Shown: positions 6,621 to 49,214 of the stretch, in pieces
Layout of the letters: each line of letters opens with the position of its first letter
How positions within the stretch are numbered: the stretch's first letter is position 1
Source of the DNA: Rhodococcoides corynebacterioides
Lineage (GTDB): Bacteria; Actinomycetota; Actinomycetes; Mycobacteriales; Mycobacteriaceae
Assembly: GCF_019834675.1 (NCBI RefSeq)
Contig: NZ_JABUBU010000001.1
Location: forward strand, 62,001-126,000
DNA length: 64,000 nt
Direction: 5' to 3'
Translations under genes and position numbers: made by a program
The notes under the pieces: generated by a model
What the model was told of the DNA's origin: nothing
The model's input: only the letters and a program-made list of their open reading frames with translations
The model's database searches: none

Positions 6621-6646
6621 ACGGTCACGCCCTTTCTGCTGTTGTC

Positions 6647-7618: not shown

Positions 7619-7771
7619 GTCGGATCCCCCTGGTGTTCGAAGACATGTGGAGCGATCAAGTCGAAAGACCTGGATCGTGCGATGAGAGACTCGGGAACAG
7701 GCGTCGCCTTTCGTGTGACGTCCGGCCGGCAGCGACGCCGTGCTGCCCGTTTCGGTGGACCGGCACTGCCG

Positions 7772-8497: not shown

Positions 8498-8573
8498 GAC
8501 AGTCCGTTTCCTAGGGGCGAGGGGATGGTTGCGGTGCAAGGCTTGCGACATCACGTCGCGACAGCTGCGATGG

Positions 8574-9950: not shown

Positions 9951-10043
9951 GGGCAGTCCTTCCGAGGATCTGTGTCGGCGTTTGCAGCCACTACTCGATG
10001 CGTGATGTGACTCACACTTGTCGGCCGCGAGCAACGTACATCA

Positions 10044-10066
10044 CATGCAAGATTGAATGCAATAGC
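10044..10066. promoter_or_regulatory. Operator-like half palindrome, site 1
   Basis: The minus strand reads GCTATTGCATTCAA here, the same 14 bases found on the plus strand at site 2 (10108-10121). Site 1 is thus an inverted, imperfect copy of site 2 in the divergent promoter region. A GntR-type repressor encoded at 18199 is the natural candidate to bind it. Confidence 0.55.
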
Positions 10067-10112
10067 GCGTTGATGTGCACCCATCGGCTGGAAAACTGCA
10101 GCTCAAAGCTAT

Positions 10113-10132
10113 TGCATTCAAGATTGAATGCA
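10113..10132. promoter_or_regulatory. Perfect 20-bp palindrome, operator site 2 of the catabolic island
   Basis: TGCATTCAAGATTGAATGCA has 9-bp arms around GA. It lies 64 bp upstream of the first RraA gene, between two divergent operons, where an operator controlling both would sit. FCD-type GntR regulators bind short AT-rich palindromes of this kind; the link to the GntR gene at 18199 is inferred from location. Confidence 0.65.
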
Positions 10133-10196
10133 GAGTATGGTCCACATCACACGGTCGATCGTCGGTGATCGGCGCCCATGAAAGTGAGACACATCG

Positions 10197-10838: not shown

Positions 10839-10949
10839 CATCTCCTCCCCGCCGGTGGTCGGGTGCACCGACGCCGTGTCTCACTCACGAAAGAGGTTTT
10901 CCATGTACATGTTTCACGCTACAACAGTCAGGAACGAGGTCGATGCACG

Positions 10950-11933
10950 ATGAGTCGAATCGTGGCCGTCGTCGGCACTTCTCACAGCCCGATGCTCGGC
11001 ATGGAGCCAGAGCGCATGTGGAATCTGCGTGCCGAGAACGACGCGGCAGGCGAGTACGACCTGTACGACCGACGGGGAGCTGTTCGCACCTTCGAGGAAC
11101 TCGTCACCGCGGCTGACGGCCGATACGACGACGAACTGTCCCTCGAGACCTGGAACGCGAAGTACGACGCAGCATCGGCCTGTGTGGACCGCCTTCGCAA
11201 GGATCTGATCGCGCTCGAGCCCGACCTGCTCATCGTCATCGGCGATGATCAGGAGGAACTGTTCACGGCCCGCAACCAGCCTGCGATCGCGGTGTATCAC
11301 GGCGAGAAGATCGAGACGCACAAGCCGATCGAGATGGGAAACGCTCTGCTGAGCCAGGTGCAGCGCAACCTCGGCATGGACGGCGAGATATACCCCGCAC
11401 ATCCGACGGCCGCGCTCCACATCATCGAGGAGTTGATCTCCCGCGATTTCGACATTGCGTCGAGCTCGGAAACCGAGACCGAAGGTGGCTTCGGCCACGC
11501 CTTCGCGTGGGTGGTGGGCAAGATGCTGAAGAACGTCACCATTCCGATGGTGCCGGTACTGATCAACACATACTTCCCGCCCAATCAGCCGACCCCCGGC
11601 CGGTGCTACGACCTCGGCCGTGCTCTGGCCGGTGCGGTCGACTCTCTGCCCGGTGACCTTCGAGTCGCGGTCGTCGCCTCGGGCGGGTTGAGCCACTTCG
11701 TGGTCGACGACGAGCTCGACCGTCGCATCCTCGACGCCATGATCGACCACGACGAAGCTACTCTGCGCGCTCTGCCTGTCGAGCAGCTGAACTCCGGTAC
11801 GTCCGAGGTTCGCAACTGGATCGCCGCTGCCGGCGCAGCACAAGATCTCGACCACCGCTGGAGCGAATACATCCCCGCCTGGCGTAGTCCCGCCGGCACC
11901 GGTATCGGTCTCGCGTTCGGGCTCTGGACATGA
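10950..11933 (+). CDS. Class III extradiol ring-cleavage dioxygenase (LigB superfamily, gallate/3-O-methylgallate type)
   Basis: A 327-residue one-domain enzyme of the LigB superfamily. It begins SRIVAVVGTSHSPMLG, with His12 at the position of the first iron ligand, and continues with LLIVIGDDQEE and the C-terminal GGLSHFVVDDELDR. The N-terminal MWNLRAENDAAGEYDLYD resembles 3-O-methylgallate/gallate dioxygenases. These use Fe(II) and O2 to open trihydroxylated or methoxylated benzoates to 4-oxalomesaconate or its methyl ester. The LigJ-like and CHA-aldolase-like genes in the operon supply the next two steps. The ATG at 10950 follows GGAACGAGG; the 3' end overlaps the next start (ATGA). The exact substrate is not readable from sequence. 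Confidence 0.82.
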   Translation: MSRIVAVVGTSHSPMLGMEPERMWNLRAENDAAGEYDLYDRRGAVRTFEELVTAADGRYDDELSLETWNAKYDAASACVDRLRKDLIALEPDLLIVIGDDQEELFTARNQPAIAVYHGEKIETHKPIEMGNALLSQVQRNLGMDGEIYPAHPTAALHIIEELISRDFDIASSSETETEGGFGHAFAWVVGKMLKNVTIPMVPVLINTYFPPNQPTPGRCYDLGRALAGAVDSLPGDLRVAVVASGGLSHFVVDDELDRRILDAMIDHDEATLRALPVEQLNSGTSEVRNWIAAAGAAQDLDHRWSEYIPAWRSPAGTGIGLAFGLWT

Positions 11934-12592
11934 GCGAGTGCGGACGGCTTGCCGCGCTCGACACCTGTGCGGTCTCGGACGCGCTCGACGCGCTTCGACT
12001 ACCGGGTGCGGCACTGGGTCTGCATGCGGTGTCCGGTGAGCGTCGGATCGCGGGACGCGCCGTGACTGTCGATCTCGTCGAAGCAGAGGGTGCCGGCGCC
12101 GCGCCGAGGCATCTGTGCACCGCCGCAGTCGATGCCTCCGGACCAGACACGATCATCGTGGTCGCGCATCACGGACGCTCACACGTCGCGGGTTGGGGCG
12201 GCGTGCTGTCCGCCGGAGCCGTCGCTCGCGGTAGCGAAGGCGTGATCGTCGACGGTGCGGTACGGGACCTCGATGAGGCCCGCCAGTTCGGACTGACCGT
12301 GTACGCGGCGACGTCGGTACCCGTCACCGCACGCACACGCATCGTCGAACGAGCGTGGGATGTGCCGGTCGAGATCGCCGGCGTCCGAGTCGAACCGGGC
12401 GACTACGTACTTGCCGACGGCAGCGGAGTGGTCTTCGTTCCGCGCGATCGTATCGACGAGGTACTCGCCATTGCCGAGAGGATCGCCGCCAAGGAGGCCC
12501 TCATGCTCGCCCGTGTCCGAGAGGGCGAATCGATGGCGACAGTCATGAGCGCCGACTACGAAACCATGCTCGATCGAGAGGCAAGCCGATGA
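11930..12592 (+). CDS. RraA-family protein, second paralogue
   Basis: A 220-residue RraA/HMG-aldolase-like protein. The core WGGVLSAGAVARG and VIVDGAVRDLDE (Arg112, Asp113) keeps the metal-binding and catalytic residues of the aldolase group. It overlaps the dioxygenase stop and the next RraA gene by ATGA on both sides, which implies translational coupling. It is clearly diverged from the first and third RraA genes, so it is not a recent duplicate. It could act on a related branch product such as the methyl ester of an oxo-acid, or as an oxaloacetate decarboxylase; neither can be decided from sequence. Confidence 0.8.
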   Translation: MSECGRLAALDTCAVSDALDALRLPGAALGLHAVSGERRIAGRAVTVDLVEAEGAGAAPRHLCTAAVDASGPDTIIVVAHHGRSHVAGWGGVLSAGAVARGSEGVIVDGAVRDLDEARQFGLTVYAATSVPVTARTRIVERAWDVPVEIAGVRVEPGDYVLADGSGVVFVPRDRIDEVLAIAERIAAKEALMLARVREGESMATVMSADYETMLDREASR

Positions 12593-13251
12593 CCGACCAT
12601 GCGCAGATCACCGAAGACCTGTCCTCGCTCGACACGAGTCACCTCAGCGACGCACTGGACAAACTAGGCCTCGCCGGACAGTGCGCGGGGCTGCTCCCCC
12701 TCGATCGCACGGTTCGTCTCGTCGGTCGGGCCTTCACCGTTCGCTATGTCCCGGTGGGGGACGACGGCGGAACAGTCGGTGACTACATCGACGACCTCGA
12801 CCCCGGCACCGTTGTCGTCCTGGACAACGCGGGGCGCCTCGACACGACAGTGTGGGGGGATCTCCTCACCGCGACCGCATCTCATCGCGGTGTGTCCGGG
12901 ACCGTCATCGACGGAGTGTGCCGTGACTCCGATTGCGCAGTGGAGCTGAACTACCCGGTGTTCAGCCGTTCGCGGTGGATGCGAACCGGCAAGGACCGCG
13001 TACGGGTGGACGGCTACAACGTGCCGGTGTCCGTCGGCGGGGTACGGGTCGAACAAGGGGACTGGCTCGTCGGCGACGCCGACGGGGTCGTCTCCATCCC
13101 GCTCGGCCGGGTCGGCGAGGTCATCGACCTCGCGTCCGGAATTCGCGACACCGAAGACGTCATTCGACGCGCCGTCCGATCAGGACAGTCGCTGACCGAC
13201 GCGCGCCGCGCGCACGGTTACCACACTCTGCAGACCCGACGGAAAGGCTGA
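12589..13251 (+). CDS. RraA-family protein, third paralogue
   Basis: A 220-residue RraA-like protein beginning MTDHAQITEDLSSLDTSHLS. It has LVGRAFTVRYVP, TVWGDLLTATASHRG and TVIDGVCRDSD (Arg112, Asp113), so the active-site Arg-Asp pair is kept. The start overlaps the preceding stop (ATGA), which decides the start among several upstream in-frame codons. It ends 5 bp before the flavin hydroxylase. Being the third RraA copy in one operon, it may be an aldolase or decarboxylase for another intermediate, or a structural partner in a mixed trimer or hexamer; this is inference. Confidence 0.8.
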   Translation: MTDHAQITEDLSSLDTSHLSDALDKLGLAGQCAGLLPLDRTVRLVGRAFTVRYVPVGDDGGTVGDYIDDLDPGTVVVLDNAGRLDTTVWGDLLTATASHRGVSGTVIDGVCRDSDCAVELNYPVFSRSRWMRTGKDRVRVDGYNVPVSVGGVRVEQGDWLVGDADGVVSIPLGRVGEVIDLASGIRDTEDVIRRAVRSGQSLTDARRAHGYHTLQTRRKG

Positions 13252-13256
13252 CCGGC

Positions 13257-15029
13257 ATGGCTCTCGCCGACATCGCCGATGTCGTGATCGTGGGCGGTGG
13301 CCCTGCGGGGTTGACGGCCGCGATCCAACTCGCGCAACTGGGAATCGACGTCACCGTCTACGAGCGACGTGCCACCACGTCGCACCTCCCGCGAGCACAC
13401 CTGCTCAACCAGCGCACGATGGAGATCTTCGACGCGATGGGGGTCGCGGACGACGTGTATGCCCTGTCACCGCCCGAGGACCGATGGCACCGTGTCGGCT
13501 GGTACACCTCGCTCGCCGGCGACCGACCGGGACAAGGCAGGGAAATCGGCCACATCGACGCCTGGGGAGGGGGCGCGGACCGCGAGCGGTATGCAGCAGC
13601 CAGCCCCAATCGATACGCCAACGTTCCGCAGATGCGCCTCGACCCGCTGCTCCGGACACACGCAGACCTGCACTGCGCGGGCAAGATCCACTACGGACAC
13701 GAGGTGCGTGACCTCCGGCAATGCGATGGCCATGTCGAGCTCGACATAGTCGAGATGGCCTCGGGTTCCACGCACACGGTGCGAGCTCGTTACGTCATCG
13801 CCGCCGACGGTGGGCGAGTGTGCTCGACACTGCTCGGCGTGTCTATGGAAGGGCCGACACAGCTTCTGGACATGGTCAGCATGCACGTCACCGCAGACCT
13901 GTCCTCCTGGGCCGTCGACGACCAGGTACTGCTCTACTACTTCGTCGATCCCAGTGGTTCGGGTTCCTTTCGAGGAAGCATCTGCGCCATGGGGCCCGAC
14001 ACGTGGGGGACAGAATCTCGCGAATGGGCATTCCACCAGGCGTTCTCCTGGGGAGACCCCGCAGCCAAGGACACCGACACCCTCGTCGCTCGTGTCCGGG
14101 ACATGCTGGGTATCCCGGATCTGCGCTTCGATGTCCACGCGATCAGCCATTGGGAGTTCGAAGGAGTGACTGCCGCGCAGTACCGTGTCGGCGACGTGTT
14201 CCTGGTGGGCAACGCGGCTCACCGCCATCCGCCGACCGGTGGGCTCGGACTCAATACCGCGGTGCAAGACGTCGACAATCTTGTCTGGAAGTTGTATCAG
14301 GTACTGCGCGGGCACGCCGGCGACGAACTGTTGGACACCTACGACGCAGAGCGCCGCCCGGTCGGCCTGTTCAACGTCCGTCATTCGCTGGAGAACGTCG
14401 GCGGTCATCGACGCGTCGCAGCAGCCCTGGGATTGAGTGCGGGCATCTCGACCGACGAGGGCTGGGCCGCCATCGACGCGTGGCTCGCACCGGGTGCCGA
14501 CGGGGAGCGGCGCCGCGCCGATGTCGCCGATGCGGTGGCCTCCAACGCCGACGATTACGGCCAGCTCAACGTCGAACTGGGCTTTCACTATTCGGAGGGC
14601 GCTGTCGTCCCCGACGGCAGCGCCCCACCGGTCCCGAGCAACCCGTTACGGGACTACATTCCGACCAGCCGGCCAGGCCACCATCTGCCGCACGCACGGA
14701 TCGACCAGAGCGCGTCGGCCGGATCGACTCTCGATCTGATAGATCGCCGGCGGTTCACCCTGCTCGTCGATCCTCGGACCGCACAGATCTGGACCGATGC
14801 CGTCGCCGCACGACACTTGCCCGTCGAGGTCGTCGCCATCGGCGGAGACGGCTCGGACGAACGGCCGGGAAGTTGGACACGACTACGCGAAGTGGATTCC
14901 GGCGGTGCAATTCTCGTTCGTCCCGACCGCCATGTTGCATGGCGGGCGATGACACTGCCGTCCGAACCTGGATCCGACCTCGCTGCTGCGCTGCACACAC
15001 TCACACGCACGGAAGGAGCGCTGGCATGA
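13257..15029 (+). CDS. FAD-dependent aromatic hydroxylase (TfdB-like)
   Basis: A 590-residue class A flavoprotein monooxygenase. The FAD dinucleotide motif is VVIVGGGPAGLTAAIQLA near the N-terminus, and the second FAD motif is GDVFLVGNAAHRHPPTGGLG. HLLNQRTMEIFDAMG and the long C-terminal thioredoxin-like domain match the 2,4-dichlorophenol/phenol hydroxylase group. It would hydroxylate a phenolic ring using NAD(P)H and O2. Upstream in-frame extension is antisense to nothing but overlaps the third RraA gene, so I use the ATG at 13257. Its stop overlaps the ligase start (ATGA). In the island it probably prepares the ring for cleavage. Confidence 0.88.
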   Translation: MALADIADVVIVGGGPAGLTAAIQLAQLGIDVTVYERRATTSHLPRAHLLNQRTMEIFDAMGVADDVYALSPPEDRWHRVGWYTSLAGDRPGQGREIGHIDAWGGGADRERYAAASPNRYANVPQMRLDPLLRTHADLHCAGKIHYGHEVRDLRQCDGHVELDIVEMASGSTHTVRARYVIAADGGRVCSTLLGVSMEGPTQLLDMVSMHVTADLSSWAVDDQVLLYYFVDPSGSGSFRGSICAMGPDTWGTESREWAFHQAFSWGDPAAKDTDTLVARVRDMLGIPDLRFDVHAISHWEFEGVTAAQYRVGDVFLVGNAAHRHPPTGGLGLNTAVQDVDNLVWKLYQVLRGHAGDELLDTYDAERRPVGLFNVRHSLENVGGHRRVAAALGLSAGISTDEGWAAIDAWLAPGADGERRRADVADAVASNADDYGQLNVELGFHYSEGAVVPDGSAPPVPSNPLRDYIPTSRPGHHLPHARIDQSASAGSTLDLIDRRRFTLLVDPRTAQIWTDAVAARHLPVEVVAIGGDGSDERPGSWTRLREVDSGGAILVRPDRHVAWRAMTLPSEPGSDLAAALHTLTRTEGALA

Positions 15030-16633
15030 ACGACTCGGTCCCTGTCATCGATGACGTGATCTCCGCCCGTCGACATTCGGTGGCAGACGTCCTGCACCGC
15101 ACCGCGAGGCGAGTCCCGACCAAGACGGCACTCGTCGGCGGCGATCGCGTCATCGACTACCGCGAACTCGACACCTCGGTCGATGTCGTCGCCGGGGCAC
15201 TCCATGCCCGTGGTGTCCGCCGCGGCGATCGAGTTGCGATTCTCTCGCGCAACAATTGGCAGTTCGTCGTGCTCACCTACGCCACAGCGCGGCTGGGTGT
15301 CATCCTCGTCCCGATCAACTTCATGCTCACCGCAGACGAGATCGCGTTCATCCTCGGCAACAGCGAGATCGCAGTCATGGTCACCGAACCGGCGTTCGTA
15401 CCGGCTGCCGAGCGAGCACTCGCCGTCTACGATCGGCCTCTGGCGGCGAGGGCAGTCATCGGAGCCACCGACGACCACACCGGCTGGGAGCCATTCGAGT
15501 CCTGGCTCGGGGTAGGCGACGCCGCTCCCGATGTGGTTGTCGGAGATGATGATCCGGTACGGATCATGTACACATCGGGTACCGAGTCGCGTCCCAAGGG
15601 CGCACTGCTGTCCAACCGTGCGCTGATTGCGCAATACACCAGCTGCATCATCGACGGCGGAATGGCGAGCGAGGACGTCGATCTGCACACCCTACCGCTG
15701 TATCACTGCGCGCAGCTCGATTGCTTCCTCGGCCCCGACATCTACCTCGGAGCCACCAGCATCATCCTTCCCGCGCCCGACCCCGACAAGATCCTGGCGG
15801 CGATCGAGACCCATGGCGTCACCAAGTTCTTCGCACCACCGACGGTGTGGATCTCGCTGCTGCGATCTCCGAACTTCGATCGAACGGACCTGTCGTCTCT
15901 TCGCAAGGGGTACTACGGCGCATCCGCGATGCCCGCCGAAGTGCTGCGCGAGATTCTCGAGCGCATACCGGACGTGCGGCTGTGGAACTTCTACGGACAG
16001 ACCGAATTGGCCCCGGTCGCCACGATCCTCGGTCCCGATGAACAGGTGAGTCATCCGGGTTCCGCCGGCCGCCCGGTGCTCAACGTCGAGACCGTCGTCG
16101 TGGACGAGAACAACACCGTTCTTCCGGTCGGAGAGATCGGGGAGGTCGCTCACCGCAGTCCACAAGCCACCCTCGGCTACTGGCGTGATCCGGTACGTAC
16201 CTCGGAAGCGTTCCGCGGCGGCTGGTTTCACTCGGGTGATCTGGGCTGCTTCGACACCGACGGCAGGCTGACCATCGTCGACCGCAAGAAGGACATGATC
16301 AAGTCCGGCGGGGAGAACGTCGCCAGTCGCGAGGTCGAGGAAGAGATCTACCGTCATCCGGATGTCGCCGAGGTCGCCGTCTTCGCGATTCCCCATCCGA
16401 AATGGGTGGAGGCCGTCTGCGCGGTTGTCGTGGCCAAACCGGGAACCGACCTCGACGAGGTGGCAGTGCGGTCACACTGCTCGAATCGATTGGCGGGATA
16501 CAAGATCCCCAAACACGTCGTGATCGTCGACACCTTGCCGAAGAACCCGAGCGGAAAAATTCTCAAGCGAGACCTACGCACCGCCTTCGCCGACCTCGCA
16601 ACTACAGCCGACCTCGCAACCACGGAGAGATGA
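15026..16633 (+). CDS. AMP-forming acyl/aryl-CoA synthetase
   Basis: A 535-residue ANL-superfamily ligase. The P-loop-like motif is MYTSGTESRPKG (about residues 178-189), the A5 region is NFYGQTELAP, the A7 motif GWFHSGDLG, A8 VDRKKDMIKSGGENV, and the C-terminal catalytic Lys is in PKNPSGKILKR. It activates a carboxylic acid with ATP and transfers it to CoA. The start at ATG 15026 overlaps the preceding stop. In this operon the substrate may be an aromatic or side-chain acid; CoA activation is not required by the gallate route, so it may feed another branch. Two near-identical short segments (ADLATTADLATTE) end the protein. Confidence 0.88.
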   Translation: MNDSVPVIDDVISARRHSVADVLHRTARRVPTKTALVGGDRVIDYRELDTSVDVVAGALHARGVRRGDRVAILSRNNWQFVVLTYATARLGVILVPINFMLTADEIAFILGNSEIAVMVTEPAFVPAAERALAVYDRPLAARAVIGATDDHTGWEPFESWLGVGDAAPDVVVGDDDPVRIMYTSGTESRPKGALLSNRALIAQYTSCIIDGGMASEDVDLHTLPLYHCAQLDCFLGPDIYLGATSIILPAPDPDKILAAIETHGVTKFFAPPTVWISLLRSPNFDRTDLSSLRKGYYGASAMPAEVLREILERIPDVRLWNFYGQTELAPVATILGPDEQVSHPGSAGRPVLNVETVVVDENNTVLPVGEIGEVAHRSPQATLGYWRDPVRTSEAFRGGWFHSGDLGCFDTDGRLTIVDRKKDMIKSGGENVASREVEEEIYRHPDVAEVAVFAIPHPKWVEAVCAVVVAKPGTDLDEVAVRSHCSNRLAGYKIPKHVVIVDTLPKNPSGKILKRDLRTAFADLATTADLATTER

Positions 16634-16636
16634 CCG

Positions 16637-17026
16637 ATGACACGTCGATCGATCGAGATCCCGGGCCTCCACCACGGCAGAGCCCCCATCCCGCAGGCCT
16701 CGCTGGTGGGTCCGTTACTGACCTCGAGCGGAATCAACGGACTCGACCCCGACAGCGGAGCCGTACCCGAGACCGTGGACGCGCAGGTAGCGCTGATCTT
16801 CTCCAATATCGGCCGCATCCTCGACAAGGCGGGCGGCACCACGGACGACATCGCCAAACTGACGTTCTTCGTGCGAGACCGGGCGGCACGGGCGGTCATC
16901 GATCCGCACTGGGTGGCGATGTTCCCCGACGAGGTCAGCCGCCCGGCACGGCACACCCTCGAGTACCCGCTTGCCGACCCGCTGCTCATCCAGTGCGAAC
17001 TCATCGCGTACGTCGGCGACGCCTGA
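16637..17026 (+). CDS. RidA/YjgF-family protein
   Basis: A 129-residue RidA-family protein. It has the family pattern: LLTSSGINGLDPDSGAVP near the N-terminus, VDAQVALIFSNIGRILDKAGGT, DIAKLTFFVRD and PLLIQCELIAYV at the end. RidA proteins hydrolyse reactive enamine/imine intermediates, and members in aromatic-degradation operons can act on amino- or hydroxymuconate-type intermediates. The canonical Arg is seen in PARHTLEYP. It starts 3 bp after the ligase stop, so it belongs to the same operon. Confidence 0.85.
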   Translation: MTRRSIEIPGLHHGRAPIPQASLVGPLLTSSGINGLDPDSGAVPETVDAQVALIFSNIGRILDKAGGTTDDIAKLTFFVRDRAARAVIDPHWVAMFPDEVSRPARHTLEYPLADPLLIQCELIAYVGDA

Positions 17027-17073
17027 CACCCCGCGTGACCCACACGATCGAACTACCCCCAGACACGAGGAAC

Positions 17074-18075
17074 ATGATGATCATCGACTCACACGCCCAC
17101 ATCGTGGCACCCGACGGTTTGTACGCCTTTCGCGCGAACCTGATGGCCGACGGTGGGTATCACATCGGGCAACCCAAGATCAGTGACGACTCGCTGGCCG
17201 CGTGTTCGCACAGCAACGTCGAGACCATGGACGCCGTCGGCACCGATGTGCAACTGCTGTCCCCGCGCCCGTATCACCAGGGACATTCGATGAAGCCCGC
17301 ACGGCTGGTGGACGCGTGGATCCGCGCGAACAACGACGTCATAGCGCGCACCGTCGAGATGCACCCGACACGGTTCGCCGGTGTGGCCGGTCTGCCCATC
17401 ACACCCGACGAGCCGGTCGAACGTGCGTTCCCGGAGCTGCGCCGTACCGTCGAGGAGCTCGGATTCGTCGGTGTGACCGTGAATCCGGATCCCCACGAAG
17501 GCACCGGCACAGCGCCGGCCCTCGGAGACCCCTACTGGTATCCGCTGTTCGAGCAACTCGTCGAACTGAAGGTTCCGATGCAGGTGCACTCGGCCGGGTG
17601 TTACAACGGCCGTGAGACCTACAGCGAACACTTCATCACCGAGGAATCGATCGCGATTCTGTCGATGATCCGGGGAAAGGTGTTCGAACGCTTTCCGACG
17701 TTGAACGTGATGATCTCGCACGGCGGTGGCTCCGTGCCGTATCAGCTCGGTCGATGGCAGGCCGAACATCTTCATCCCGGACTCGGCGGCGACCCGCATG
17801 CGCCGCGCTTCGAAGACCACCTGAAGCATTTCCATTTCGACACCGTTCTGCACTACTCACCCGCGCTCGAACTGCTGCTCAAGACTGTCGGGTCGGACCG
17901 AGTGCTCTTCGGAACGGAACGTCCGGGTAGCGGCTCGACCGAGAATCCTGAAACGGGGCGCCCATTCGACGATTTGAAGCCGGTCATCGAGGGCTTCGAC
18001 TTTCTCGACGAGACCGACCGCAGAAAAGTGTTCGAAGAGAACGCGCGACGCGTCTTCCCACGGCTGAAGGTCTGA
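17074..18075 (+). CDS. LigJ-like 4-oxalomesaconate hydratase (amidohydrolase-2 family)
   Basis: A 333-residue metal-dependent protein of the ACMSD/amidohydrolase-2 family. The N-terminal metal motif is IIDSHAHIV, followed by QVHSAGCYNGR, VMISHGGGSVPYQLGR and the C-terminal LFGTERPGSG...NPETGRPFDDLKP. This last segment corresponds to the LFGSEM...DPETG..FDD stretch of 4-oxalomesaconate hydratase. The enzyme adds water to 4-oxalomesaconate to give CHA, between the extradiol dioxygenase and the CHA aldolase. ATG at 17074 or 17077 is possible; GAGG at 17067-17070 favours the second slightly. It is the last gene before a double hairpin. Confidence 0.87.
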   Translation: MMIIDSHAHIVAPDGLYAFRANLMADGGYHIGQPKISDDSLAACSHSNVETMDAVGTDVQLLSPRPYHQGHSMKPARLVDAWIRANNDVIARTVEMHPTRFAGVAGLPITPDEPVERAFPELRRTVEELGFVGVTVNPDPHEGTGTAPALGDPYWYPLFEQLVELKVPMQVHSAGCYNGRETYSEHFITEESIAILSMIRGKVFERFPTLNVMISHGGGSVPYQLGRWQAEHLHPGLGGDPHAPRFEDHLKHFHFDTVLHYSPALELLLKTVGSDRVLFGTERPGSGSTENPETGRPFDDLKPVIEGFDFLDETDRRKVFEENARRVFPRLKV

Positions 18076-37389: not shown

Positions 37390-37774
37390 CGACCATCCTG
37401 GCAACGAACGCGAACCGCCCGCAACGGCAGGAGCGGTCCGCGGAAACGGCTCACGGTCGGCGGCGTCGCCGCGGTGTGCTCGCCTCACCGAGGAGGGCAG
37501 GCGTGGGGTGCCGGATCCGCTCGACGGCCTCGACTGCCGCGGCGATGCAGTCGGCGCGCTCGCTCGGGTCGGTCCCGTCCGCGTCACCGAGTGCGTCGAC
37601 CACGTTCTCGACGCGGTGCGCCTCTACGTCATGAGCAGTCCCCTGGTTATCCGCGCGGCGGGGCGCATCGGCACGGCGACGACGTCACCGGAGAGACCCG
37701 TCGGCGGTTCGTCGGGATGCAGCACAAACGAGGGGTCCGGTTCGACAGCGATGGATGCGGGGCATCCACCGGTC
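37390..37774. other. Stretch without a supported gene
   Basis: A minus-strand phase ending at TGA 37451-37453 reads VVDALGDADGTDPSERADC and AAAVEAVERIRHP, which looks like protein, but it has no start with a ribosome site and is closed upstream by a stop. It may be the tail of a gene cut by the IS element. Nothing else is recognisable. Confidence 0.4.
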
Positions 37775-38056
37775 ATGGCAGACAACGGTCGCACCCTCAC
37801 CCTCCACCTCGGTCACGACGAGCTCGTGATCCGCCGCAAGTGGGAGACCGCCAGCATCGTCAACGACGTCCTGGTCGCGCTGTGGTTCGTGATCGGCAGC
37901 GTCCTGTTCTTCTGGGAATCGACCACTACGACGGCCACGTGGTTCTTTCTGGTGGGCAGCCTGCAGTTCCTCGCCAGACCCGTGATCCGCCTGACTCGGC
38001 GTATTCATCTGCAGCGCATCGGCTCCGACGACGGAGGGACATCGGCCGACTTCTGA
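37775..38056 (+). CDS. YrhK-domain membrane protein, copy 1
   Basis: A 93-residue protein with two membrane helices: HDELVIRRKWETASIVNDVL leads into VALWFVIGSVLFFWES and then FFLVGSLQFLARPVIRL. This is the YrhK domain of unknown function. It differs from the copy at 40777-41058 at only seven residues, so the two come from a recent local duplication. Confidence 0.82.
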   Translation: MADNGRTLTLHLGHDELVIRRKWETASIVNDVLVALWFVIGSVLFFWESTTTTATWFFLVGSLQFLARPVIRLTRRIHLQRIGSDDGGTSADF

Positions 38057-40509: not shown

Positions 40510-40629
40510 CTACTGAAACGGGTTCAGGGTGCGGCCGAGGACGTATCCGATGCGTCCGGAAATGGGACGCATGGCTGCTGCCGAGACCTTGTTGGCGACG
40601 CCCGTGATGCAGACCGGCTTGCCGGCGCG
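40510..40629 (-). pseudogene. SDR C-terminal fragment
   Basis: The last 39 codons, RAGKPVCITGVANKVSAAAM then RPISGRIGYVLG and RTLNPFQ, differ at four positions from the C-terminus of the intact SDR at 42536-43333. The rest of the gene is absent. It is part of the same duplication that produced the two YrhK genes. Confidence 0.8.
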
Positions 40630-40636
40630 TCCCGTG

Positions 40637-40711
40637 CGGCTCGAGAAACGAGACGAGATCGTCGTGGCCGCGCGAAAGTCGTTCGTCGAGGCCGGCTTCG
40701 GGGGAACGTGA
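40637..40711 (+). pseudogene. TetR N-terminal fragment
   Basis: The plus strand reads RLEKRDEIVVAARKSFVEAG then FGGT and a stop, which is the first helix of a TetR HTH (R..I..AAR..F...GF..T). The frame ends before the recognition helix. It directly abuts the SDR fragment on the other strand. Confidence 0.6.
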
Positions 40712-40776
40712 ACGAGCAAGAGCCGGAGCGTGGTGATGTCCGTTCGATTCGTGCGCCCACGGGGCACCCATCGGGC

Positions 40777-41058
40777 ATGACGGACGACGGGCGCACCCTC
40801 ACCCTCCACCTCGGACACGACGAATTGGTGATCCGCCGCAAGTGGGAGACCGCGAGCATCGTCAACGACGTCCTGGTCGCGCTGTGGTTCGTGATCGGCA
40901 GCGTGCTGTTCTTCTGGGAGTCGACCACCACGGCGGCCACGTGGTTCTTTCTGGTGGGCAGCCTGCAGTTTCTCGCCCGGCCCGTGATCCGTCTGAGTCG
41001 GCGTATTCATCTTCAGCGGATCGGCTCTTTCGACGGTGGTTCCTCGGGGGACTTCTGA
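40777..41058 (+). CDS. YrhK-domain membrane protein, copy 2
   Basis: A 93-residue two-helix protein, 86 of 93 residues identical to copy 1 at 37775-38056, including both helices. The conservation of an intact frame in both copies suggests that both are still used. Function unknown. Confidence 0.82.
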   Translation: MTDDGRTLTLHLGHDELVIRRKWETASIVNDVLVALWFVIGSVLFFWESTTTAATWFFLVGSLQFLARPVIRLSRRIHLQRIGSFDGGSSGDF

Positions 41059-42535: not shown

Positions 42536-43333
42536 CTACTTGAACGGATTGAGGGTGCGGCCGAGAAAGTAGCCGATGCGTCCGGGAATGGGACGCATGG
42601 CTGCCGCCGAGACCTTGTTGACGACGCCCGTGATGCAGACCGGCTTGCCGGCGCGCACGGCGTCCCAGCCCTCGCGGACGACGTCTTCCGGCTGCTGCCA
42701 CAGGAATCCGGGCAGACGGTCGGCGACGTCGCGGGTGTCCATCACGTCGTGGAACTCGCTGCGCGTGAAGCCGGGGCACAACGCGGTGACGTGAATGCCG
42801 TGCGGTTTGAGCTCCATGTCGAGCGACTGGGACATGTTCAGCACGTAGGACTTGATGCCGGTGTAGAGCAGTCCGGCCCCGGGAGGGGAGACCGCGGCCA
42901 CGGACGACAGGTTGACGATGCGTCCCCACCGACGAGCCTTCATGCCGGGAAGCACGCGATGGGTCAACTCCGTCACCGCGGTGACCATCAGCTGGAGTTC
43001 GGCGGCGAGCGTGTCCCACTCGGTGTCGGAGATCATGGTCTTCGACGACAGCCCAGCATTGTTGACGAGGACGTCGACGGCCATACCCAGCTCGTCGACG
43101 CGATCCACGATCGCGGCGGGAGCAGAGCGGTCGGTCAGGTCGGCCGTCACCGTCTCGGCGCGCACCCCGTGATCACGGCGGAGTTCGGTGGCCAGCGTCT
43201 CGAGTCGGTCGGATCGCCGCGCCACCAGGATCAGGTCGTGACCGTCGGCGGCGAGATGCCGGGCGAAGGCGGCGCCGATCCCGGCGGAGGCGCCGGTGAC
43301 GAGGGCGGAACGGCGGGGCTGGGGTGTGGTCAT
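42536..43333 (-). CDS. Short-chain dehydrogenase/reductase
   Basis: A 265-residue SDR. SALVTGASAGIGAAFARHLA is the NADP motif, VDVLVNNAGLSS the NAG motif, LSSVAAVSPPGAGLLYTGIK carries Ser and the Tyr-x3-Lys triad, and the C-terminal KVSAAAMRPIPGRIGYFLG tail resembles DltE/YqjQ-like proteins. It overlaps the stop of the upstream alpha/beta hydrolase (ATGA), so the two form one unit. A copy of its tail lies at 40510-40629. Confidence 0.9.
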   Translation of the reverse strand: MTTPQPRRSALVTGASAGIGAAFARHLAADGHDLILVARRSDRLETLATELRRDHGVRAETVTADLTDRSAPAAIVDRVDELGMAVDVLVNNAGLSSKTMISDTEWDTLAAELQLMVTAVTELTHRVLPGMKARRWGRIVNLSSVAAVSPPGAGLLYTGIKSYVLNMSQSLDMELKPHGIHVTALCPGFTRSEFHDVMDTRDVADRLPGFLWQQPEDVVREGWDAVRAGKPVCITGVVNKVSAAAMRPIPGRIGYFLGRTLNPFK

Positions 43334-44243
43334 CGTGCGTCTCCTGTGTGGCGGTCGAGGAAGTGGATCTGGTCTGTGACGATGGTGTCGAAGAACGGAT
43401 CGAGACAGGGCTCGAAGTGGCCGCACTCGTAGGTGCGCACCTCACCCTTCGGTATGCGGCGGGCGACGGCCCTGGCCGTGTCGATCGGCGTGACGTCGTC
43501 GTGGGCCGCGAGTTGGGCGAGAACGGGCACGTCGATGGCGGTGGCGTGGCGTCCGGGGGAGTAGAACGGCACACGAACTGCGACGCGGGCGGCGACGTCG
43601 TTCTCGGCGAGCAGTTCCTCGCGCATGTCTCCCATGCGTTCGACCAGTTCGTAGGCGCCGGCGAGGTCATCATGGCGTTGTCACCCGGTCGTCCCACGGC
43701 GGCGAGGCGGTACGGCGACCGGCCCGTCCAGGCACGAATCTGGTCGTACACCCCGGCGGCGATCAGCCGTGCGACCGCTCTCGGGTTCCGAGCGAACGCC
43801 GACGCGGGTCCGCTCACGTGTGGGACCTGCACGATGGCGGCGGCGAGGCGCCGATCCCGGGCGGCCAACCGGAGGACGTGTCCGCCGCCGAAGGAGGACC
43901 CCCAGGCCACGACCCGCGTGGTGTCGACGCCGTCGATGCTGCGGGCGAACTCGATCGCGGCCTCCCAGTCCGCCTGTTGCTTGCCGATGTCGAGGATGCG
44001 TCGAGGTAGTCCTGCGCTGGCGCCCCAATGGCGGTAGTCGAAGACGAGTGCTGCGTAGCCGGCTTCGGCGAATCGCGCGGCGTACGCGTCGAGACGAAGT
44101 TCTCGGAACGCGGCGAATCCATGTGCGAGCACGACGATCGGTGGGTTCACGACGTCACTCGGCCGGTAGAGCCACGCTGCGCATTGGGTGCCGCCGGACT
44201 CGAACGCGACATCGGAGCGCACGTACTCGAACTGACGCGTCAT
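43330..44243 (-). pseudogene. Alpha/beta hydrolase with one-base frameshift
   Basis: From the ATG at 44243 (GGAGG upstream) the frame encodes a DUF-type alpha/beta hydrolase: PIVVLAHGFAAFRELRLDAY, FDYRHWGASAGLPRR, and the nucleophile elbow VAWGSSFGGGH. Near 43665-43680 the coding phase shifts by one base; the C-terminal part then continues as GAYELVERMGDMREELLAEN, VPVLAQLAAHDDVTP with a likely Asp, and the catalytic-type YECGHFEPCLD. A single missing base in the CCTCGCCGG run would restore an intact protein of about 304 residues. It is either a fresh pseudogene or a base-calling error. Confidence 0.8.
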
Positions 44244-44366
44244 GGCCGGAACCTCCACCTCGGTACCCCCTCGCCGAATCTGTCCTTCGCGATCGGCACG
44301 TGCAGCGCGCCGAGTGACGACCTCTTGACATCGACCACATTTGTGATCACGCTTACAGCACCAAAT

Positions 44367-44381
44367 GATAGCAACTATCAC
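44367..44381. promoter_or_regulatory. Palindrome upstream of the dehydrogenase-aldolase operon
   Basis: TGATAGCAACTATCA, 6-bp arms with a 3-base centre, 16 bp before the start of the fusion gene. The half TGATAGTT recurs at 48407-48414 before the IclR gene, which suggests a common regulator. Confidence 0.55.
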
Positions 44382-44397: not shown

Positions 44398-45759
44398 ATG
44401 AAGGTAGCGATTCTGGGGCTCGGTGAAGCGGGCACCCTCTACGCCGCGGGGTTCCTGGCGGCCGGCTGGACCGTGACCGGGTTCGACCCGGCGGACATCT
44501 CCACCCCGTCGGGCGTGGAGCGGTTCGACGACGTGGCCGACGCCGTCCACGGAGCCGAACTGGTCCTCAGCCTGACCAGCTCGTCCGTGTCCGAACGCGC
44601 GGCCGCGGCGGCGGCGCCGCACCTGCGGTCCGGCGCGACCTACGCCGACATGAACTCGGCCAGTGCAGCGGTGAAGACCGCCGTCGCCCGAGCGGTGGAC
44701 ACCGCGGGGGGCGTGCTGTTCGCCGACGTCGCGGTCGTCGGGTCCGTTCCCGCGAACGGTGCACGGACCGCCCTGGTCATCAGCGGCTCCGGCTCCACCG
44801 CCGCCGCGGCGCACTTCGAATCCCTCGGTGCGCCCGTCGACGACATCGGCGGCGCTCCCGGCGACGCCTCGCGTCGCAAGCTGCTGCGCAGCAGCTTCAT
44901 GAAGGGACTCGGCGCACTCATCGTCGAATCCACCGAGGCCGGCGTGGCGGCCGGTGCCGAGCAGTGGATCCGCACCCAGATCGCCTCGGAACTGAGCGGC
45001 GGGTTCGAGTCGCTCGACCGCCTCCGCGACGGGACTCGCAAGCACGCGGGCCGCCGCGCGATCGAGGCCGCCGCGTCGGTGGCGCTGCTCGACGAGATCG
45101 GCGTTCGTCCGGTGCTCGCCGCGGCCGCCACCGAGTTGCACGCCGCGCTGGCGGATGCGAACGGACGCGACACCGACGGGCTCGCCGCGGCGTACGCCGG
45201 ACTTCCGGTCGCCAACATCGGCGACGCCCGCGATCGCATGGGGATGCTCGATTCGGGCATCCGATCGATGTGGAAGGGCGCCCGAGTCGTCGGCCGAGCC
45301 CGTACCGTGTGGACCCGCGGCGGAGACAACAAGGCACTGCAGGCGGCCGTTGCCAAGGTGCTGCCGGGGGAGGTCATCGTGATCAACGGTCAAGGTCACC
45401 TCGACCGCGCACTTATGGGTGAGCTCCTCGCCGAGCGAGCGCGTAACCGCGGCTGCGTCGGCATGGTCATCGACGGCGCCGCCCGCGACATCGACGTCCT
45501 CGAGGAGATCGGGTTCGGTGTCTGGGCTCGTGCGGCCAGTCCCGCCGGGCCCTACAAGAACGGACCCGGTTACAACGACATCCCGGTCGCGGTCGGTGGC
45601 GTCGTCTGCAACCCCGGCGATCTCGTCGTCGCCGACGACGACGGCGTCATCGTCGTCCCGGCGGCCGAGGTCTTCACCAGTCTCGACGGCGGACGAGCGG
45701 TCGAGGCCGACGAGGCGCGCCGCCGCGCCGCCATCGTCGCCGAGCGGACGGCGTCGTGA
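44398..45759 (+). CDS. Fusion protein: NAD-binding 6PGDH-like (DUF1932) dehydrogenase and RraA-type aldolase
   Basis: A 453-residue protein with two complete domains. Residues 1-250 form a beta-hydroxyacid-dehydrogenase-like part: Rossmann motif MKVAILGLGEAGTLYAAGFL, ADMNSASAAVK, and the DUF1932-type KLLRSSFMKGLGALIVESTE. Residues 265-453 are an RraA/HMG-aldolase domain: VANIGDARDRMG, LMGELLAERARNRGCVGMVI then DGAARD (Arg363, Asp364), and VVADDDGVIVVPAAEV. A single chain could oxidise a hydroxy acid and cleave the resulting oxo acid, or the reverse. The frame runs without break across the join, so the fusion is real in this sequence. Its stop overlaps the TRAP permease start. Confidence 0.88.
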   Translation: MKVAILGLGEAGTLYAAGFLAAGWTVTGFDPADISTPSGVERFDDVADAVHGAELVLSLTSSSVSERAAAAAAPHLRSGATYADMNSASAAVKTAVARAVDTAGGVLFADVAVVGSVPANGARTALVISGSGSTAAAAHFESLGAPVDDIGGAPGDASRRKLLRSSFMKGLGALIVESTEAGVAAGAEQWIRTQIASELSGGFESLDRLRDGTRKHAGRRAIEAAASVALLDEIGVRPVLAAAATELHAALADANGRDTDGLAAAYAGLPVANIGDARDRMGMLDSGIRSMWKGARVVGRARTVWTRGGDNKALQAAVAKVLPGEVIVINGQGHLDRALMGELLAERARNRGCVGMVIDGAARDIDVLEEIGFGVWARAASPAGPYKNGPGYNDIPVAVGGVVCNPGDLVVADDDGVIVVPAAEVFTSLDGGRAVEADEARRRAAIVAERTAS

Positions 45760-47096
45760 TCGCCATCTGGGCGTTGGTGGCCTTCATCGTCGCCATCGTC
45801 TTCTGGAACGCGGTTCTCAAGCGCAACATCGGTGAGTCGATGATCGTCGGCTTCCTGGTCGTCGGTGCTTTCGCAGGTCGGCAGGCGCCCGAATACATGT
45901 GGCACGGATTCCTCGACTCCATGCAGGAGGAGGTGACGTTCGCCGGGCTCGCATTCATCTTCATGAGCTTCGTTCTGGCCAAGACGCCCGTCCTCGACCG
46001 GCTGATCGACATCCTGAACAGCCTCCTCGGACGGCTGCGAGGCGGGCCGATCTACACCTCCACCGTGGCCGGCGGCATGTTCGGTGCCATCGCCCACGTC
46101 GGTGCCTCGGTCACCGCCGCCGTCGGATCCGTGACGGTGCCCTGGATGAAGCGCTCGGGTGTCAGCGGAGAGCTGTCGGCCACCGTCGTCGCCGGATGCG
46201 CGGGCATGGGCGTCACCTTCCCGTTCAGCGCGACCATGTTCATCCTCGTGGGGTCCACCACTGTCACCGGACTGATGGAGCCGGACGAGATCATCCTGCC
46301 GCTCGCGCTGGCCGGCCTCTGGTGCCTGGGTTACCGCCTGCTGCTCAACTACTACCTGGTGCGCAAGAACGGCCTGCAGCCCATCGCACCGGAGGACCGC
46401 ATTCCCGCCAAGCGCAGCCTACGCGCCGGCTGGACGTCTCTCCTTCTCTTCGTCCCGATCATCGTCCCGCTGCTCCTGACCCGTGGACCCATCGCCGTCC
46501 CGATCGCCGAGTACACCGATCTGGTGATGTCGAGCGCGATCAGCCTCATCACCTGGATCCCGGTGTTGATGATCCTGCTGGTGTTCTTCCTCGGCCGTCG
46601 GCATCTGCCGCGGACCGGTCGCGGATGGTGGAAGATTCTCGGCGAGACCGCTCCCCAGTTCGGCGTCATCGGCGTCACCATCGTCGCCGCCTTCTCCGCC
46701 TCGAACGTCCTCGGTGACATCGGGTTGCCCGAGCAGCTCACCACGGTCCTCGAAAGCCTCAGTGCCCCGGCCTGGTTGATGGCCATCCTCGTCGGCGTCA
46801 TCATCGTCGTCATCGCCATCCCTCTCACAGCGTCGGCCACCATGGCAGCAGTCGGCGGAGTGGCCGTGGCCGCGCTGGTCGGCGTCGGAATCCCCGCCCC
46901 GGTCGCGGCGGCAGCCGTGCTCGTCTTCGCTTCCACCGAGGGTGCCTCCCCGCCGTCGGGAGCCCCGATCTACGTCGCCGCGGGCATCGCCCGCGTCGAT
47001 CCGGGCAAGATGTTCGCCCCGCTGCTCAAGTACTACTGCGTCCCCATCCTGGGCGTCGGAGTGCTCATCGCACTCGGCCTGCTCCCCGTCAGCTGA
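45756..47096 (+). CDS. TRAP-type large permease (DctM-like)
   Basis: A 446-residue integral membrane protein of the DctM/GntP-like superfamily with about 11-12 helices. MFGAIAHVGASVTAAVGSVT and FASTEGASPPSGAPIYVAAG are family-type re-entrant loop segments. The GTG start overlaps the upstream stop (GTGA). TRAP systems normally have a DctQ subunit and a periplasmic DctP; only an 88-residue two-helix protein follows here and no binding protein is present. It would import the organic acid handled by the fusion enzyme. Confidence 0.78.
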   Translation: MIAIWALVAFIVAIVFWNAVLKRNIGESMIVGFLVVGAFAGRQAPEYMWHGFLDSMQEEVTFAGLAFIFMSFVLAKTPVLDRLIDILNSLLGRLRGGPIYTSTVAGGMFGAIAHVGASVTAAVGSVTVPWMKRSGVSGELSATVVAGCAGMGVTFPFSATMFILVGSTTVTGLMEPDEIILPLALAGLWCLGYRLLLNYYLVRKNGLQPIAPEDRIPAKRSLRAGWTSLLLFVPIIVPLLLTRGPIAVPIAEYTDLVMSSAISLITWIPVLMILLVFFLGRRHLPRTGRGWWKILGETAPQFGVIGVTIVAAFSASNVLGDIGLPEQLTTVLESLSAPAWLMAILVGVIIVVIAIPLTASATMAAVGGVAVAALVGVGIPAPVAAAAVLVFASTEGASPPSGAPIYVAAGIARVDPGKMFAPLLKYYCVPILGVGVLIALGLLPVS

Positions 47097-47128: not shown

Positions 47129-47395
47129 ATGGCCGAGAAAGTCATCTCCACCGTTTTCCGTATCAGCGTCGCCCTGTTCCTGCTCGGCGGTCTGGTCATC
47201 GTGATCCTGCAGGGCGTCGGACTCGTTCTGGGTGACGGGGACTTCGTCACCGGGAGCGAGGAGGCGCTCGCGCCCTGGGCCTACGGTTCCGCCGGCGTGG
47301 CCGGGCTGCTCGCCTTCGCGTTGTCCTACTTCCACCATGCGGACGCCGAGACGCCGGCCGACGCGGACACAGTCGTCACCCCGGAACACGCATGA
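47129..47395 (+). CDS. Small two-helix membrane protein, possible permease partner
   Basis: An 88-residue protein with two hydrophobic segments (TVFRISVALFLLGGLVIVIL and AYGSAGVAGLLAFALSYF) and an acidic tail. It lies between the permease and the cyclase gene and overlaps the latter by ATGA, so it is a conserved-looking operon member. It is far smaller than a usual four-helix DctQ. A small-subunit role is inferred only from position. Confidence 0.65.
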   Translation: MAEKVISTVFRISVALFLLGGLVIVILQGVGLVLGDGDFVTGSEEALAPWAYGSAGVAGLLAFALSYFHHADAETPADADTVVTPEHA

Positions 47396-48387
47396 CGACG
47401 ACCGCGTCGGGCATTCATCCCGGCTCGAATTACCGAGATCTGGCGTCGCGACACGACGGCGCCCCTCCCGGGTCGAGCTGGGGGGTGTTCTCCGAGCCGG
47501 ATCGGGGGACGGCGAACTTCGCCGGTCCCCAGCAGGTGCGCGAGGCGGCCGGGCTGGTGCGACGCGGAGTCGTGTTCGGTCTCGACCATGCCCTGGGCGC
47601 GTTCGATCCGCCGATGTCGCGGTCGAGGTCCGCCCCGCGCCACACCATCGTCTCCGCCCACGCTCAGTCACGAGACGACCTGCTCGACGGCTTCTTCCTG
47701 CAGGCGAGCAGCCATCTCGACGGTCTGCGTCATCGTCGCGTGTCGGGCTACGGCTTCTACGACGGCGTCCCCGACGACGCCGTCGTCGAGGGTGAACCGC
47801 GACTCGGCATCCAGGCCTGGGCGGAGCATCCGATCGTGGGCCGCGGCGTGGTGTTGGACCTCGAGGGTCTGTTCGAGGCGGACGGGGCCCCGCTGCACCA
47901 CCTCGACGGTCCGGCCCTGGACGCCGCGGCGCTCGACCGTGCTGCCGCACGCCAGGGTGTCACCGTCGAGGAGGGTGACATCGTGCTCGTGCACACCGGG
48001 TGGGCACGGTGGTTTCTCGACGCGTCGGCGGCGGATCGGACCGCGGTTCGCGAGGGCCGGCGCTCGACCGGGTTCGCTCAACACCACGATCTTCTGTCGT
48101 GGGTGTGGGACCACAGGATCGCGGTGTTCGGAACCGATACGTTCGCCGTCGAGGTGCTCCCCGTGGCGCCGACGTCGCCGTTCCGCGACACCGCACCCGA
48201 GGACGCCGGCATGATGCACCAGGAGCTGATCGCCAAACTCGGTGTGCCGCTCGGAGAGCTGTGGAACCTCACCGCGCTCGTGGAGGACAGTCGCACCCAC
48301 GGGCAATGGGATGCGATGGTGACGATCAAGCCGCTGGCGATAGTGGGCGGGGTCGGTTCGCCCTGCAACGCGACCGCGGTGCGCTGA
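47392..48387 (+). CDS. Cyclase-family (PF04199-type) hydrolase
   Basis: A 331-residue protein of the putative-cyclase/kynurenine-formamidase/isatin-hydrolase superfamily. The metal site appears as SSHLDGLRH (family HxGTHxDxxxH), with VVLDLEGLF, EEGDIVLVHTGWARWFLD and GVPLGELWNLTALVEDSRTH downstream. Members hydrolyse amides or lactone-like bonds, often in catabolic operons. It is the last gene of the run that starts at 44398. Confidence 0.8.
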   Translation: MTTTASGIHPGSNYRDLASRHDGAPPGSSWGVFSEPDRGTANFAGPQQVREAAGLVRRGVVFGLDHALGAFDPPMSRSRSAPRHTIVSAHAQSRDDLLDGFFLQASSHLDGLRHRRVSGYGFYDGVPDDAVVEGEPRLGIQAWAEHPIVGRGVVLDLEGLFEADGAPLHHLDGPALDAAALDRAAARQGVTVEEGDIVLVHTGWARWFLDASAADRTAVREGRRSTGFAQHHDLLSWVWDHRIAVFGTDTFAVEVLPVAPTSPFRDTAPEDAGMMHQELIAKLGVPLGELWNLTALVEDSRTHGQWDAMVTIKPLAIVGGVGSPCNATAVR

Positions 48388-48449: not shown

Positions 48450-49214
48450 ATGTCGGCACCGGCGAGCAACATGCGGTCCCTCGACCGCGCTTTCGACGTC
48501 CTGACCGTGTTGCAGTCCACCAAGCACCCCCTCCGCCTGGCCGAGGTCGCGCGGTCGTCGGAGTTGCACATCGCCACCGCGCAACGAATCCTCGGTGTGC
48601 TGGTCCACCGCGGATACGCCGCACGCACGGCGGACGGCTACACAGCGGGCCCGGCGGCTCTGGCCGTCGCGCACGCGTTCATGGTCACCAATCCGTTGTC
48701 GGTCCTCGCACAGCCGATCATGCAGCAGCTTGCGTCGAGCACCGGCTTCACGGCATCGCTCTACGTCCGGGTGGAGCATTCCCGCGTTCTCATCGCTCGG
48801 GTCGAGAGCGAGAACCCGCTGAGTTACGTACTGCCCGTGGGGGAGAGGCTACCGTTGCATCTCGGCGGGGCGGGGAAGATGTTCCTCGCCGGTCTGCCTC
48901 CGGAGGAGGTCGACAGCGTGCTGGCGGACGTTGCCGGTGCCACGGTGGCCGGCGGTGGCGCCCTCGACGTCGACCTGCTGCGCCGACAGCTCGAGGTCAT
49001 CGCCCGCGACGACTACGCGGTGTCGGTCGGAGAGCGTCTGGTCGGCATCGCGTCGGTGACAGCTCCCGTCCGCGCTCGCGGTAGCGACGTCGTGGCGGTG
49101 CTGGGTGTCACCGGATCCTCCGACCGGCTGAACGGAGACGCCGTCTCGTCGGTGGTCGCCGAAGTCCGCCGCGCCGCCACCACTCTCGGCGACCGGATAC
49201 CCCCCGCCGGGTGA
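48450..49214 (+). CDS. IclR-family regulator
   Basis: A 254-residue IclR protein. The N-terminal winged helix reads SLDRAFDVLTVLQSTKHPLR and LHIATAQRILGVLVHRGYAA; the C-terminal GAF-like effector domain has PVGERLPLHLGGAGKMFLAG and DDYAVSVGERLVGIASVTAP. IclR proteins control catabolic operons in response to small acids. AGGAG stands 5 bases before the ATG at 48450. It lies just after the dehydrogenase-aldolase/TRAP operon and is its likely regulator. Confidence 0.9.
   Translation: MSAPASNMRSLDRAFDVLTVLQSTKHPLRLAEVARSSELHIATAQRILGVLVHRGYAARTADGYTAGPAALAVAHAFMVTNPLSVLAQPIMQQLASSTGFTASLYVRVEHSRVLIARVESENPLSYVLPVGERLPLHLGGAGKMFLAGLPPEEVDSVLADVAGATVAGGGALDVDLLRRQLEVIARDDYAVSVGERLVGIASVTAPVRARGSDVVAVLGVTGSSDRLNGDAVSSVVAEVRRAATTLGDRIPPAG

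Follow-up and report, generated by a model that had tools for sequence, protein, structure and literature searches.

In this analysis, we ask whether a dehydrogenase and an RraA-type lyase that share a single reading frame in Rhodococcoides corynebacterioides form one genuine protein and, if so, which reactions such a protein might join and on what substrate. The frame lies at 44398–45759 on the plus strand of the window, the 64,000-nucleotide stretch of contig NZ_JABUBU010000001.1 analysed here, and stays open for 453 codons from ATG to stop. Pfam places NAD_binding_2 (PF03446) at residues 2–135 (30.5 bits, cut-off 21), DUF1932 (PF09130) at residues 184–249 (25.7 bits, marginally above the cut-off of 25) and an RraA-like domain at residues 272–419 (144.1 bits against a cut-off of 24.5), with a GxGEAG dinucleotide motif at residues 7–12. 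On this basis, and from conservation and a structure match to 3qsg, the dehydrogenase domain is assigned to residues 1–249 (44398–45144, plus strand). A short junction follows at residues 250–271 (45145–45210), delimited by predicted confidence, conservation and dN/dS, and the RraA-fold domain occupies residues 272–453 (45211–45756), as judged by Pfam, alignment, conservation and a structure match to 3noj. Read from its sequence, the fused protein is a beta-hydroxyacid-dehydrogenase-like domain followed directly by an RraA-fold pyruvate aldolase/decarboxylase domain that is itself complete.

The opposite (minus) strand of 44398–45759 is likewise open from end to end in this G+C-rich DNA, so an open frame alone is little proof of a gene; we regard the fused frame as genuine because other genomes match it at full length in one frame. 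Its prevalence across genomes is low: counting the source genome each time, full-length single-frame fusions were found in three of 61 near relatives by whole-genome search, all three within the 37 genomes of the genus, in 12 of 397 sampled genomes of the order and in 10 of 394 genomes of the class. The full-length one-frame matches from the near-relative and order searches range from 83% down to 48% identity. A scan of named genomes retained the best 80 loci, and its counts are not prevalences; 50 of these loci (L071–L120) carry an uninterrupted frame, in every case with the dehydrogenase preceding RraA. Among the loci listed, the fused ones cover 21 named genera plus one Propionibacteriales genome, the genera including Rhodococcus, Mycolicibacterium, Pseudonocardia, Brevibacterium, Saccharopolyspora, Prauserella and Nocardiopsis. 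An earlier note, made from the letters of the window, had read one uninterrupted frame fusing the two domains, suggested looking for the same domain order in other genomes and named homologues that are always split as grounds for giving up the idea; the 453-residue frame with its Pfam domains and the 50 fused loci bear out that reading.

In comparisons with two relatives, dN/dS stays below 0.3 in each half and across the junction, which shows that all three parts are under purifying selection. Against the 83% relative, the ratio is 0.12 overall (dehydrogenase 0.16, junction 0.26, RraA 0.07), and against L079 (71% identity) it is 0.25 overall (0.27, 0.18 and 0.20, respectively); L071 and L074 were excluded, their alignments being out of register. 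That a sequencing error merged two genes has a negligible chance of being right, as conservation across genomes and dN/dS rule out an artefact or a chance frame: in one relative, G115, the copy of this protein is indeed broken, by a frame change located between its two domains, but the fused frame is open in at least 50 named loci. The origin of the fusion was traced in trees in which this broken copy was scored as fused. The dehydrogenase tree contains one state change, the fork joining the fused rows having a support of only 96/57, and the free RraA tree places four Brevibacterium second copies (L112, L113, L115 and L116) beside split genes and contains two changes. An independent second fusion in Brevibacterium was considered and set aside: the RraA tree in which the fused rows and G115 are held together is 7.66 log units better and is not rejected (p-AU 0.693). 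A single old fusion event thus appears the simplest reading of the trees.

Residues G7, G9, G12, D30, K161, R363 and D364 are invariant across all 51 fused proteins; position 342 is E in 49 and D in two, and position 387 is K in 47 and R in four. On the basis of the family motif, we take K161 to be the likely catalytic lysine of the dehydrogenase, and D30, which closes the second strand, suggests a preference for NAD rather than NADP. In the second half, an alignment that is ungapped here equates N311, R363, D364 and K387 with Asn-71, Arg-123, Asp-124 and Lys-147 of the Pseudomonas putida HMG/CHA aldolase (4-carboxy-4-hydroxy-2-oxoadipate aldolase/oxaloacetate decarboxylase, 3noj), and E342 with its Asp at 102. 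According to PMC5065237, Arg-123 stabilises the pyruvate enolate, Asp-124 binds the metal, and the N71A and K147A substitutions each lower kcat more than 1000-fold. The kept residues are consistent with a working pyruvate-lyase site. The PDB also contains RraA regulators with identical residues at the positions of N311, R363, D364 and K387, and these four therefore do not distinguish an aldolase from a decarboxylase or from other RraA functions.

An AlphaFold model of the fusion (mean pLDDT 93.3) matches both folds with confidence, the first half superposing on 3qsg (Z 29.2, rmsd 3.8 over 260 residues, 29% identity) and the second on 3noj (Z 28.8, rmsd 1.3 over 191 residues, 35% identity). The relative placement of the domains is not confidently predicted (pTM 0.62), residues 251–260 of the linker averaging 66. 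For the RraA half, the HMG/CHA aldolase is nearest by sequence among solved structures and nearest by structure among RraA-fold chains. The residues shared with RraA regulators, together with the binding and modulation of the RNA degradosome by E. coli RraA described in PMC5065237, would suit a RraA half that serves as a scaffold or regulator (RNase E-type control), leaving the dehydrogenase alone catalytic. We consider this very improbable, given that the best RraA-fold match is an aldolase, that its positions R363 and D364 are kept throughout the fused proteins, and that the RraA regulator equivalogs are missed (NF006875, 97.8 against 136 bits; TIGR02998, 60.6 against 241.25 bits), model scores on which a role as RNase E regulator is judged unlikely. 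The HMG/CHA equivalog cut-offs are missed too (NF006731, 141.4 against 179 bits; TIGR02798, 138.5 against 304.5 bits); all curated RraA-family cut-offs being missed, the aldolase ones included, counts against the catabolic reading that we prefer below.

Downstream of the fused gene, on the same strand, lie a stand-alone DctM-type permease (45756–47096), a small two-helix membrane protein of 88 amino acids (47129–47395), a cyclase-family (PF04199) hydrolase recognised by Pfam and by its solved relative 5ibz (47392–48387), and an IclR-type regulator recognised by Pfam (48450–49214). The GTG start of DctM overlaps the fusion stop by four bases, and the end of the small membrane frame overlaps the hydrolase ATG by four. 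Of the 50 fused loci, 48 have DctM, 49 an IclR gene and 21 a cyclase no more than 6 kb from the fusion; two of the 50 carry less than 1.5 kb of downstream sequence. The type strain of Rhodococcus opacus, ATCC 51881 (L074), is among the carriers of the operon. The cyclase-type hydrolase that the earlier note counted into the operon is thus present here but accessory: loci without it retain the regulator, the fusion, DctM and the small protein. With no cyclase within 6 kb in 29 of the 50, the imported acid may be the direct substrate of the fusion.

The best NCBIfam matches of the regulator are to PcaR/PcaU/PobR and BhcR, both under cut-off (132.9 bits against 350 for BhcR). Upstream of the fused gene, the perfect palindrome TGATAGCAACTATCA at 44366–44380 is a candidate IclR operator. 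TTGAC occurs in 49 of 52 upstream regions, 46 of these at −64 to −100, and the TGATA-TATCA palindrome in 14 of the 52, comprising the 10 nearest Rhodococcus and Mycolicibacterium regions (the window included) and four from Brevibacterium; it is absent upstream in Rhodococcus L082 and L110. Within the window, this perfect copy is the sole match; at two mismatches, 0.45 matches are expected and 38 of 100 shuffles matched, so the evidence for it lies in conservation and not in the count.

Further features of the window are recorded in their own right. The divergent neighbour of the fused gene (43330–44240, minus strand) looks like one alpha/beta-hydrolase gene spread over two frames, either a broken gene or a sequencing error, and its short piece at 43330–43635 has no Pfam match. 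A minus-strand frame at 40510–40818 looks like a duplication remnant of the short-chain dehydrogenase at 42536–43333, whose C-terminal end it resembles, and the frames at 37508–38056 and 40777–41058 share a near-identical hydrophobic C-terminal stretch, a second sign of regional duplication. At 5412–18075, an aromatic-degradation-like cluster (P450, 2Fe-2S reductase, MFS transporter, FAD hydroxylase, AMP-binding ligase and amidohydrolase) has a LigB-type dioxygenase with three separate RraA paralogues around it, an arrangement that looks unusual.

The permease of the fused operon scores 143.8 bits against a cut-off of 23.8 for DctM (PF06808) and misses the narrower TIGR00786 (55.2 against 268.45 bits). 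It is the only DctM of its genome. The TRAP-like importer of the earlier note therefore holds as far as a DctM homologue, but DctP and DctQ each number zero in the genome. A TAXI-type binding protein (PF16868) is encoded at a distance, at C1:389750, and C23 gives another, weak match, so a remote binding partner is possible. In a set of 14 genomes that carry the fused operon, the present one among them, DctP is absent in seven, and a DctQ match is absent in five, two more having sub-cut-off matches alone; in the other seven genomes, DctP and DctQ adjoin high-scoring DctMs elsewhere, the DctM of the fused operon scoring 144–177 bits. For the TTT family, PMC5812351 discusses rare cases in which TctA lacks a binding protein and treats them as unexplained. 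The importer would then be a divergent DctM, a stand-alone TRAP-type permease, perhaps with the small membrane protein as partner.

This small protein was sought by length and hydrophobicity behind plus-strand DctM genes and was found in 41 of the 44 fused loci examined, four loci with a minus-strand DctM being left out. The exceptions are L105, whose candidate is a DctM fragment, L076, which ends too early, and L106, which has none; in L114, the frame sits behind a second DctM. It also follows DctM in L067 and in L065, L129, L135 and L136, operons in which dehydrogenase and RraA are split. An alignment of 46 rows (40 of the 41, the window copy and these five) holds a single invariant residue, Q28, and 20–60% identity to the window copy. 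The 46 members gave scattered weak matches alone (best E 0.005 in Pfam and 0.0038 in NCBIfam), and the window copy matched zero PHROGs families. A PDB profile match to 8qkd (E 4.6e-8), covering 44 positions of chain sc-CC-5-24, was given no weight. These searches thus give the two-helix membrane protein no convincing family in either Pfam or NCBIfam.

From these features, we see an even chance that the fusion is a bifunctional catabolic enzyme by which an imported hydroxy-(poly)carboxylate is oxidised to a 2-oxo acid that the RraA half then cleaves. DctM, perhaps with the small membrane protein, would import a stable hydroxy-di- or tricarboxylate, whose hydroxyl the N-terminal domain would oxidise, using NAD+ and yielding a labile 2-oxo acid. 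The RraA domain, presumably a divalent-metal lyase, would cleave this product via a pyruvate-type enolate, by retro-aldol cleavage (slightly favoured) or by oxaloacetate-like decarboxylation, so that pyruvate is released together with either an oxo acid or CO2. In loci that have it, the cyclase-family hydrolase would open a precursor such as a lactone or a related compound, and IclR would control the operon through the palindrome. We infer the order of steps, the substrate, the role of the cyclase, the operator and the NAD preference. A 2-oxo acid that RraA can cleave would be labile, which favours oxidation as the first step. The earlier note had proposed a similar coupling of hydroxy-acid oxidation to cleavage or decarboxylation; its two-domain protein, the kept key residues of both families and the carboxylate-type transporter stand, and its picture of the operon changes at the accessory cyclase and at the importer.

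Channelling of the labile acid between the two sites, as suggested in the earlier note, is possible; the AlphaFold model, with its low-confidence linker, offers no interface that can be trusted. The halves might instead share one pathway and act independently, with the fusion fixing their ratio alone and nothing being channelled, a view that fits the 51 of 63 order genomes that have a match yet no intact fusion, as well as the low confidence of the domain placement. We hold it to be fairly improbable: a fusion kept in 21 named genera, and compatible with one origin, suggests some benefit, of a kind left unspecified.

Unfused relatives bear on both the substrate and the order of steps. Among the 30 non-fused loci of the best 80, both genes fall within the fetched stretch in 25, and the dehydrogenase occurs without RraA in five. 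RraA precedes the dehydrogenase on one strand in 12 of the 25, the order is reversed in eight, and the genes lie on opposite strands in five; the seven end-to-end pairs (L122, L127, L129, L135, L136, L138 and L149) all run RraA then dehydrogenase. This order is also found in Thermus oshimai, P. syringae, Priestia, Shinella, Azospirillum and Rhizobium daejeonense, and the reverse in Nitratireductor and Rhizobium sp. Pop5. Because adjacent split pairs mostly show the order opposite to that of the fusion, the fusion probably did not arise by mere loss of a stop codon between usual neighbours.

The transporters beside split pairs offer hints of the substrate. In seven of seven actinobacterial split pairs (L065, L066, L122, L127, L129, L135 and L136), picked because their genes touch, TctB, TctA, TctC, RraA and the dehydrogenase stand in succession, headed by an IclR gene except in L136, where the contig begins there. 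Pfam confirms three Tct families in L135 and two in L065, the Tct genes elsewhere being assigned by likeness, and the clusters of L065, L129, L135 and L136 continue into DctM and a cyclase. Of nine plasmid regions examined, one carries no annotation; in the other eight, the pair accompanies TctABC in three; other transporters (MFS, ABC, citrate symporter and SLC13/TRAP permease) lie near it in the remaining five, a point against the preferred reading. The R. daejeonense cluster (L157 6201–12735) combines PIG-L, an RraA member named as CHA aldolase, a DUF1932 dehydrogenase, TctABC and 4-oxalomesaconate tautomerase, which hints at a C7 tricarboxylate. On balance, these neighbourhoods suggest a di- or tricarboxylate substrate.

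The same loci lend weight to cleavage as the first step, in which the RraA half would act on an imported or internal 4-hydroxy-2-oxo acid and the dehydrogenase would reduce or oxidise the released carbonyl product. BphI-BphJ and DmpFG are the model for such cleavage-first pairing of aldolase and dehydrogenase, and the fold family of the dehydrogenase includes glyoxylate and tartronate-semialdehyde reductases. Furthermore, directly adjacent split pairs mostly place RraA first, and the regulator matches the BhcR model, below its cut-off. Nocardiopsis sp. MG754419 (L101 37–3205) adds an IclR-RraA-DctM set without a dehydrogenase match to its fused operon, which also weakens the case that oxidation necessarily comes first. 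We regard this sequence of steps as unlikely, though the strongest of the alternatives, since, in the minimal operons, the nutrient that is taken up would have to be a labile 2-oxo acid. Loci with one half alone (the L101 set and the five dehydrogenase-only loci among the 30) likewise count against the preferred reading.

Oxidation followed by cleavage remains that reading. More tentatively, and with distinctly less than an even chance, these operons may represent an undescribed actinobacterial hydroxy-carboxylate module, in which a covalent dehydrogenase-pyruvate lyase passes a labile 2-oxo acid from one of its sites to the other and DctM with the two-helix protein forms an importer without a solute-binding protein. 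In the fusion, two poorly understood families, the DUF1932 dehydrogenases and the RraA-fold lyases, are tied to a single reaction sequence, so that one protein allows both functions to be probed. Unfused versions adjoin in proteobacteria, Thermus and Priestia too, and a substrate found here would help annotate genes labelled ‘NAD(P)-dependent oxidoreductase’ and ‘RraA family protein’. Moreover, the stand-alone DctM and its small partner offer a test of a TRAP-type permease working without a binding protein.

Among known systems, the HMG/CHA aldolase shares with the fusion its C-terminal fold and the positions Asn-71, Arg-123, Asp-124 and Lys-147. The Arg-123/Asp-124 pair and an acidic residue at 102, by which that aldolase is recognised, are present in the fusion, as residues that are not exclusive to the family. 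The fusion differs in its dehydrogenase in front and in Glu rather than Asp at 102, and, unlike the aldolase, has no ring-cleavage gene among the four other genes of its operon. The DUF1932 dehydrogenases 3qsg, 4ezb and 1i36, the nearest solved relatives of the N-terminal half, share its domains and fold, whereas these solved chains span 258–299 residues, have no RraA part and bear titles that assign no function. In the open-licence PMC literature, we found no description of a dehydrogenase-RraA fusion and no biochemistry of a DUF1932-type dehydrogenase, the latter a point against the preferred reading.

With TRAP DctPQM, the operon shares a DctM homologue, which weakly matches the solved isethionate DctMQ, but the genome here lacks DctP and DctQ, and a small two-helix protein sits in the operon. 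BphI-BphJ and DmpFG likewise pair a pyruvate aldolase with an NAD-linked dehydrogenase, as complexes of other folds on separate chains. Catalogued fusion models, namely PRK07028 (hexulose-6-phosphate synthase/ribonuclease regulator) and PRK12764 (fumarylacetoacetate hydrolase family protein), share the RraA-like C-terminal side (profile positions 226–412 of 430 and 269–447 of 501), with scores far under cut-off (107 against 593 and 79.8 against 444 bits). Their N-terminal partner is, by name, another enzyme, whereas here it is NAD_binding_2/DUF1932. Fusions of RraA to other enzymes are thus already known, and the architecture described here is a further combination among those catalogued.
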